Positions 23,903 through 27,153 of a stretch of DNA of 38,946 bases are shown one piece after another. This DNA comes from Sulfurimonas sp. GTDB taxonomy: Bacteria > Campylobacterota > Campylobacteria > Campylobacterales > Sulfurimonadaceae. Each line of letters opens with the position of its first letter. Positions within the stretch are counted from its first letter, which is position 1. Under the pieces are notes generated by a model. That model worked only from the letters and a program-made list of their open reading frames with translations, searched no databases and was not told where the DNA came from. The position numbers were made by a program, and so were the translations under genes. The stretch is from positions 1 through 38,946 of the forward strand of contig JAQUFE010000018.1 in the NCBI GenBank assembly GCA_028684815.1. Direction: 5' to 3'.

Positions 23903-24256
23903 TTAGTGCCCTCCGTGCTCTTTTGTAAAGTCAGTCTCATAGATATAGTCAGATATCTCTTTTAAAGCATCTAACTCATAACTAAGATTTGGCATCAGTC
24001 CGTACTTTGCTATGGCATCTAACATAAGTGAAGTCTCTTCTTTTGGCTCTTTTACCCATGTCGCCATATAGTCTGAAAACTCTTCCTTATCCGCAAATGC
24101 GCTAAGATATTTCTCTCTTATCTCTACAGTAGAAGGTGCTGATATCGCTTTTGTCTCATGATGGCAGGTCACGCAGTTTCCATGAAACAGAAGCGAACCA
24201 TATTCGCTTGCATTTAAACTTAGACAAAAAAGAGAAGTTAATATAATTTTTTTGAT
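23903..24256 (-). CDS. Periplasmic monohaem cytochrome c, probable ATC start
   Basis: About 117 residues: a signal peptide (IKKIILTSLFCLSLNASEYG) and one haem c motif C28-V-T-C31-H32. Without canonical start codons the reading frame appears to begin only at GTG 24172, which would remove the signal peptide and the first haem Cys and so cannot be the real product. In frame, AAGGAA lies 6-7 bases before ATC at 24256, exactly where ATG would be expected (ATCAAAAAAATT for MKKI). I therefore infer initiation at ATC, or a point mutation. A Met in GLMPN could be the second haem ligand. It follows the TerB/J gene by 12 bp. Confidence 0.7.
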   Translation of the reverse strand: MKKIILTSLFCLSLNASEYGSLLFHGNCVTCHHETKAISAPSTVEIREKYLSAFADKEEFSDYMATWVKEPKEETSLMLDAIAKYGLMPNLSYELDALKEISDYIYETDFTKEHGGH

Positions 24257-24268
24257 ACTTTGTTCCTT

Positions 24269-25021
24269 TTAAGATTTTGCTTTTTTTATCATCTCATAAG
24301 CTTGATTTATCTCTTGAGTCTTTGCCGTCGCTTCTTGCATATACTTCTCGCTTTTTCCCTGAGACTTAATAATATCAGGATGATACTCACGAACAAGTTT
24401 TCTATAAGCTTTTTTAACAGTAGCCATATCATCGTCTTCTTTTACACCTAAAAGTTTATAAGCGTCAGATATATTCGCTTTTGGTTGGATGTTTTGCATC
24501 ATCTTCTCAAACTGGTCGTATATGGCATGATAAGCATCTGGATTAAACTCAAAGGCACTTGCAATAGTTTGAAGAACTAAGTCTTCGCTAGCAGATACTT
24601 CACCATCAACAAAAGCCAACTGAATCAAAAAACCCATAAACTGTTGCTGTTTTGACTTATCTCTTTTTATGGCTTGCCCTAGTTTATTAGCTATCTCTTG
24701 CGTATTGTGAGTCTTATCTTTTTCATCATCAAATATCTCTTTTAAGATACTCTTTGTTTTGCTTGGTTCTGGGAAAACATTTGAGATGTCGTCAAACATG
24801 TGACCAACAAGTTCAGCCTCAAGTGCATCTACTCTTCCATCAGCCTTTGCAACCTTTGCAACTAATGCTACAAAAAGCCCCAAATCACTCTTAGCTAACG
24901 CCTCTTTTGTAATAGAGAAATTTTTAAAAGCCTCTTGTGAGTACGCTGTGTACTTAGAATAACTCTTAAAAATCCAGTAGAAAAAACCGCCAATAACTAG
25001 CAGTAGTATTAAATTGCCCAT
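24269..25021 (-). CDS. Membrane-anchored TerB/DnaJ-domain co-chaperone (DjlA-like)
   Basis: A 250-residue protein with one N-terminal membrane helix (LILLLVIGGFFYWIF, 4-18), a TerB-like helical domain (about 40-180; LVAKVAKADGRVDALEAELV, IQLAFVDGEVSASEDLVL), and a C-terminal J domain (about 186-250) with YKLLGVKEDDDMATVKKAYR and the HPD motif in REYHPD, which activates DnaK. The order TM-TerB-J is that of DjlA. The client is unknown. The cytochrome c gene follows 12 bp downstream in the same direction, so a shared transcript is likely. Confidence 0.87.
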   Translation of the reverse strand: MGNLILLLVIGGFFYWIFKSYSKYTAYSQEAFKNFSITKEALAKSDLGLFVALVAKVAKADGRVDALEAELVGHMFDDISNVFPEPSKTKSILKEIFDDEKDKTHNTQEIANKLGQAIKRDKSKQQQFMGFLIQLAFVDGEVSASEDLVLQTIASAFEFNPDAYHAIYDQFEKMMQNIQPKANISDAYKLLGVKEDDDMATVKKAYRKLVREYHPDIIKSQGKSEKYMQEATAKTQEINQAYEMIKKAKS

Positions 25022-26829: not shown

Positions 26830-26836
26830 AGCTTCT

Positions 26837-27115
26837 TCTCGTTCCCACTGTCCTCGGTGCGAACGCATATAAAGTAGATGTTAAAGATATATGCATTCCA
26901 CCTCAGGAGAGGATGGAACGAGAAAAAGTTTCTCGTTCCCACCGTCCTCGGTGGGAACGCATATAAAGTAGATGCTAAAGATATATGCATTCCACCTCAG
27001 GAGAGGATGGAACGAGAAAAAGTTTCTCGTTCCCACCGTCCTCGGTGGGAACGCATATAAAGTAGATGCTAAAGATATATGCATTCCACCTCAGGAGAGG
27101 ATGGAACGAGAAAGA
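26837..27115. repeat. Repeat family C: three tandem 94-bp palindromic units
   Basis: Units start at 26837, 26931 and 27025. The second and third are practically identical; the first differs at a few bases. Each is a long imperfect inverted repeat: outer arms TTTCTCGTTCC/GGAACGAGAAA, inner arms GGTGGGAACGCATAT and ATATGCATTCCACC, and a 16-nt centre. An alternative fold has hairpins CGTTCCCACCG/CGGTGGGAACG with loop TCCT and CCTC/GAGG with loop AGGA, whose loops are complementary. This accounts for the whole 324-bp gap between kdsA and ribH; small open frames inside are translated repeat. Confidence 0.9.
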
Positions 27116-27153
27116 CTCCAAAATAGTAGTAAACATAAATATAAGGAAAACAG

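Follow-up and report, generated by a model that had tools for sequence, protein, structure and literature searches.

The 38,946-nucleotide stretch analysed here (the window; contig JAQUFE010000018.1 of Sulfurimonas sp. assembly GCA_028684815.1) carries on its minus strand a class I cytochrome c gene (23903..24256) with a signal peptide, a CVTCH haem motif and a YGLMP distal methionine. Read from 24256 to the stop codon at 23903..23905, the frame specifies 117 residues that begin IKKIILTSLFCLSLNASEYGSLLFHGNCVTCH and end in HGGH, and its DNA is single-copy within the source genome. Immediately 5' on the same strand lies a DjlA-like gene with TerB and DnaJ domains (24269..25021), which ends in a TAA (24269..24271) that is in the cytochrome frame. 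The earliest canonical in-frame start is a GTG (24170..24172, minus strand) located 3' of the first haem cysteine codon, and the minus strand holds no in-frame ATG, GTG or TTG between the TAA and this GTG. The proposed start is instead an ATC (24254..24256, minus strand), which is separated by a 6-nt spacer from the Shine-Dalgarno sequence AAGGAA (24263..24268, minus strand); the predicted duplex energy is -5.8 kcal/mol with an assumed anti-Shine-Dalgarno sequence, as no 16S rRNA was found in the source genome. The first-pass annotation had proposed this ATC start on the grounds that the frame upstream of the GTG encodes a signal peptide and the first cysteine of CVTCH, that AAGGAA is well placed before the ATC, that canonical codons are lacking upstream, and that canonical rules would yield an 89-residue product devoid of a signal and with a broken haem motif. 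Each of these observations held on inspection of the translation, of the frame back to the TAA and of the open reading frame listing, in which the canonical call is an 89-residue product (MTCHHETK...) without the first haem cysteine. Translation of the secreted haem protein very probably begins at the ATC.

Searches of the genus recovered orthologues at E<=1e-20 in 72 of 135 genomes; two collection searches placed the close relatives under a single genus code, and the four named records among them are Sulfurimonas MAGs. No relative was found in the viral contigs searched. We compared 76 loci, comprising these 72 orthologues, a further MAG, NORP168, and three weaker relatives outside the genus, with none dropped; outside this set remained weaker paralogous cytochromes and named repeats of included loci (L033-L035). 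As NORP168 and G155 have the same coding sequence, the set holds 75 distinct sequences. At the start position we observed ATG in 53 loci, GTG in 10, TTG in two, ATA in nine and ATC in two, i.e., a canonical codon in 65 of the 76 and ATA or ATC (collectively ATH) in 11, or in 10 of the 75 distinct sequences (eight ATA and two ATC). Where a locus offered several canonical candidates, the script took an ATG lying 25-34 codons before the haem cysteine if one was present. The ATC is shared by the window gene and G069, the relative nearest to it (81% identity), and the greater frequency of ATA among the ATH loci (nine vs two) is a point that the first-pass annotation lacked. The ATH codons sit 27 or 28 codons before the haem cysteine, matching the 27-33 codons typical of the canonical starts, and not one of the 11 ATH loci has a canonical in-frame start from the upstream stop through codon 22 before that cysteine. 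A TTG further downstream could possibly initiate a shorter signal in G016 (18 codons before the cysteine) and in G182 (21 codons); the window gene has no TTG of this type. The comparison of homologues that had been suggested for the start region, which would have told against the ATC had their start regions differed, instead showed starts at the equivalent position, with ATC in the closest homologue and ATA in nine others, and the presence of ATC or ATA in close relatives, where most orthologues have ATG, GTG or TTG, makes the non-canonical start look like a real evolved feature rather than a sequencing slip.

The combination of signal peptide, CxxCH and distal methionine is that of class I cytochromes c. 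CxxCH is present in all 76 loci, the script having required it, and each of the 11 ATH loci keeps it intact; Met-Pro at the expected distal ligand site is found in 75 of the 76. The best of five AlphaFold models has a pLDDT of 82.4 (the other four 54.8-63.7), and the first 34 Foldseek matches are cytochromes or cytochrome-bearing complexes (probability up to 1.00, best E 0.042), headed by a Rhodothermus cytochrome c and followed by c-551, c6 and c555. The Pfam Cytochrom_C profile scores 14.7 bits, under its cut-off of 21.3, and the NCBIfam scores likewise fall under their cut-offs. Given the CxxCH and Met-Pro motifs and the match of the model to cytochromes c, the product is most likely a periplasmic class I-type electron carrier.

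The relationship of this gene to its upstream neighbor had not been recognized in the first-pass annotation. The neighboring protein matches the Pfam TerB and DnaJ domains above cut-off and the NCBIfam co-chaperone DjlA with 125.8 bits, below the cut-off of 162. A DjlA-like gene ends just 5' of the cytochrome in 63 of the 76 loci; the 13 loci in which this neighbor was not found all have canonical starts (ATG 11, GTG 2). Each of the 11 ATH loci has its start either overlapping the upstream stop or a few nucleotides behind it: in every one of the nine ATA loci the TAA stop of the DjlA-like gene overlaps the ATA as ATAA, and in both ATC loci the stop lies 11 or 12 nt upstream of the ATC. Of the remaining 52 coupled loci, four show the canonical version of the same overlap (ATGA in two, GTGA in two). 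At L018, L074, L081 and L087 (G086, G160, G178 and G167, respectively) the chosen cytochrome ATG is nested in the 3' end of the DjlA-like gene and begins 11 nt ahead of the first base of that gene's stop.

A 75-row tree computed from the mature cytochrome and the C-terminal portion of the DjlA-like protein (G087 was omitted for lack of data) confines the ATH loci to two clades, A and B, in which they make up 11 of 15 rows. Clade A (support 99/95) unites eight ATH rows with G193, which is coupled and starts with an ATG within an ATGA overlap, indicating that ATA is not obligatory. Clade B (support 97/88) has three ATH rows and three ATG rows (G041, G058 and G030), which have lost the DjlA-like neighbor and have a different gene upstream; within clades A and B this association of neighbor loss with ATG represents one lineage only. 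The tree requires a minimum of four changes between ATH and canonical starts. Two independent origins of ATA were considered and are unsupported: forcing A and B together costs just 0.45 log units (p-AU 0.496). ATA may therefore have arisen once, and the nine ATAA overlaps are accordingly not nine independent events.

The codons in front of the GTG evolve as coding sequence. Over the 29 aligned codons upstream of it, the window gene and G069 differ with pS 9.0/18.3 and pN 7.0/68.7 (Fisher p 0.0005, counts rounded), a ratio about equal to that of the remaining gene (pS 27.5/53.3, pN 19.5/213.7). In the ten codons comprising the haem cysteine and the nine before it, pS is 5/7 and pN 0/23; the preceding stretch, with pN/pS of 0.31-0.89 over 21 clade A pairs, evolves in a signal-peptide-like manner. 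The substitution pattern thus places the codons upstream of the GTG under purifying selection. The signals themselves are no less hydrophobic in the ATH loci (mean best 10-mer 2.81) than in the others (2.52).

We compared 163 open reading frames, some of them not real genes, with G069 contig C7; they came from the window and from ten additional stretches of the source genome. In three of them a long segment upstream showed clear purifying selection, and the cytochrome is the sole clean case of a non-canonical start among the 163. The other two were rejected: one (L166) reflects an assembly gap of N, and the other (L167) has an intact ATG followed by a one-base frameshift. The latter is a PAS-domain gene (L167 1390-1971, G000 contig C97) with an intact ATG region, in which a one-base difference from G069 breaks the frame; it is either a pseudogene or an assembly error. 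Elsewhere in the window, an intergenic region (26836-27117) contains a 94-nt unit repeated three times in tandem, the copies being 95-97% alike and with inverted-repeat pieces; 15 matches to this unit, the three tandem copies included, are listed in the source genome.

With respect to the initiation machinery, the Shine-Dalgarno sequences of the ATH loci are not significantly stronger than those of the canonical loci (-3.88 vs -3.25 kcal/mol, p 0.26); the two ATC loci taken alone have strong ones, at -5.8 and -5.6 kcal/mol. A special initiator tRNA was rejected, as ARAGORN, applied to 30 of the 42 tRNA places of the source genome, identified ordinary Met(CAU) tRNAs, two of them with the initiator-like arm CGGG-CTCATAA-CCCG, and found no Ile(UAU) tRNA in these places. 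Starts with ATT, ATA or ATC are known for infC in other bacteria. Here, infC is present in all 16 genomes queried; the script's pattern missed eight of these genes, and in the eight that were read (G011, G074, G000, G060, G073, G182, G069 and G061) the first candidate start is TTG rather than ATH, which speaks against a parallel with this gene in those eight genomes.

Taken together, we consider it likely, with good confidence, that the locus holds an intact cytochrome c gene, directly behind the DjlA-like gene, whose translation starts at ATC 24256; the position of this start is well supported. Initiation at ATC or ATA would insert formylmethionine, presumably via the ordinary initiator tRNA, and the position of the start close behind or overlapping the DjlA-like gene would favor translational coupling, in which ribosomes terminating on that gene would assist initiation of the cytochrome. 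In an ancestor or a sister line, ATGA may have become ATAA, a single base turning ATG into ATA and TGA into TAA, with ribosomes that finish the DjlA-like gene, aided by AAGG, still able to initiate at the ATA. In the lineage of the window, the upstream stop would have shifted 11-12 nt upstream and the Shine-Dalgarno sequence become AAGGA(A), the start now being ATC. Bacterial AUA and AUU starts function at a fraction of AUG (PMC13009471, PMC13068326), and cytochrome output is probably reduced with ATC or ATA. IF3 discriminates against non-canonical starts (PMC2268962, PMC5472188), and re-initiation after a stop is also sensitive to it, with a milder effect in the presence of a Shine-Dalgarno sequence (PMC2268962); initiation of the cytochrome would likewise be expected to respond to IF3.

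One reading, which has almost an even chance of being correct, sees ATA and ATC as a passive leftover: a single G-to-A substitution within an ATGA overlap could persist since coupling still secured enough output, and weakness of the start was not itself selected. This reading competes solely with selection for weakness and leaves the ATC/ATA start itself untouched. The ATG of G193 in the same clade, the lack of Shine-Dalgarno compensation and the ATG of the three relatives without the upstream gene all fit it; however, both ATC species have no overlap and, with ATG one base away and no stop at stake, still keep ATC. We advance more tentatively that AUAA may act as a functional stop/start overlap, in which a ribosome terminating at UAA re-engages the AUA, coupling thereby licensing a start that would otherwise be too weak, with ATA or ATC kept beside the upstream gene and ATG regained after separation.

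Beyond these, a start codon would be unnecessary if readthrough or frameshifting from the DjlA-like gene produced a fusion. The two genes of the window do share one frame across the TAA, and A AAA AAG occurs within the open overlap of G185 and G182. However, in G069 the frames differ and an extra in-frame TAG lies 3 nt before the ATC; the final in-frame stop ahead of the cytochrome sits at -6 in seven of the 11 ATH loci, leaving in the ATA loci among those seven just a 7-nt zone open, with no common slippery motif; and the signal peptide would end up internal to the fusion. We thus regard a fusion as improbable. Still less probable, and close to refuted, is a sequencing or assembly error that conceals a true ATG: the assembly is indeed a draft of 101 contigs, and another of its genes seems to be frameshifted by one base, but the nearest relative also has ATC and two of the nine ATA loci come from single-contig genomes (G061 and G185). 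That the true product starts at GTG 24172, for all that it is the earliest canonical start in frame, or that the gene is decaying, is hardly credible, as the first haem cysteine and the signal would be lost, the GTG is replaced by GTA in G061 and G025, the codons upstream of it are under purifying selection and the haem motif is intact in every ATH locus.

Conserved ATA and ATC starts are seldom documented, and gene callers restricted to ATG, GTG and TTG cannot propose them; the canonical call here results in a cytochrome without its signal peptide and with its haem motif halved. If the AUAA reading is true, annotation pipelines would be overlooking a class of coupled genes in which ATA overlaps a TAA stop. 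At a single site the genus offers a natural series of ATG, GTG, TTG, ATA and ATC starts, the upstream gene being present or absent, and the effect of coupling on start-codon choice is therefore directly testable.

Conserved non-canonical starts are already known, for instance in Staphylococcus aureus ccpN, Listeria rnhC and Streptomyces sigR. The natural starts reported in PMC13009471 include AUA in ccpN of S. aureus and Bacillus, and AUU in cvfC1 and AUA in infC and citZ of S. aureus; these cases were demonstrated by Ribo-Ret and reporters, and yield about 10% of AUG output in poor medium, with ccpN reaching up to 30% in rich medium. As in the Sulfurimonas cytochrome, these AUA/AUU codons are preceded by a Shine-Dalgarno sequence, and ccpN and cvfC1 are conserved across species; unlike it, they have extended Shine-Dalgarno sequences, whereas the cytochrome has an ordinary one and an ATA overlapping the upstream stop. 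In Listeria (PMC13068326), rnhC has a fixed natural ATC start, infC starts with ATT, and rsbW shows ATG-to-ATA/ATT changes; the rsbW ATA lies within the rsbV/rsbW overlap, and a single base change therefore affects two genes. That ATA, however, was mostly laboratory-selected, occurring also in two related strains, and the overlap is of 17 bp, whereas in Sulfurimonas the ATA is distributed over two clades of one genus and shares bases with the stop codon itself. A genus-wide non-canonical start with rare third-base variation is likewise displayed by Streptomyces sigR (GTC), with GTC/GTT as against ATA/ATC here, but sigR is the upstream partner and its repression by IF3 has been demonstrated (PMC5472188). 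An architectural parallel is offered by the ATGA/TGATG termination-reinitiation pairs (PMC6728339), which are tandem genes that share start and stop bases and usually have the Shine-Dalgarno sequence inside the upstream gene; the cytochrome departs from them in its non-canonical start, and a word search of the main text of that paper returned neither ATAA nor AUA. Among the best-ranked matches listed from one literature library, there was no Sulfurimonas case and no bacterial AUAA case. Against this background, what appears new is the ATAA overlap together with the spread of ATG, ATA and ATC inside a single genus.
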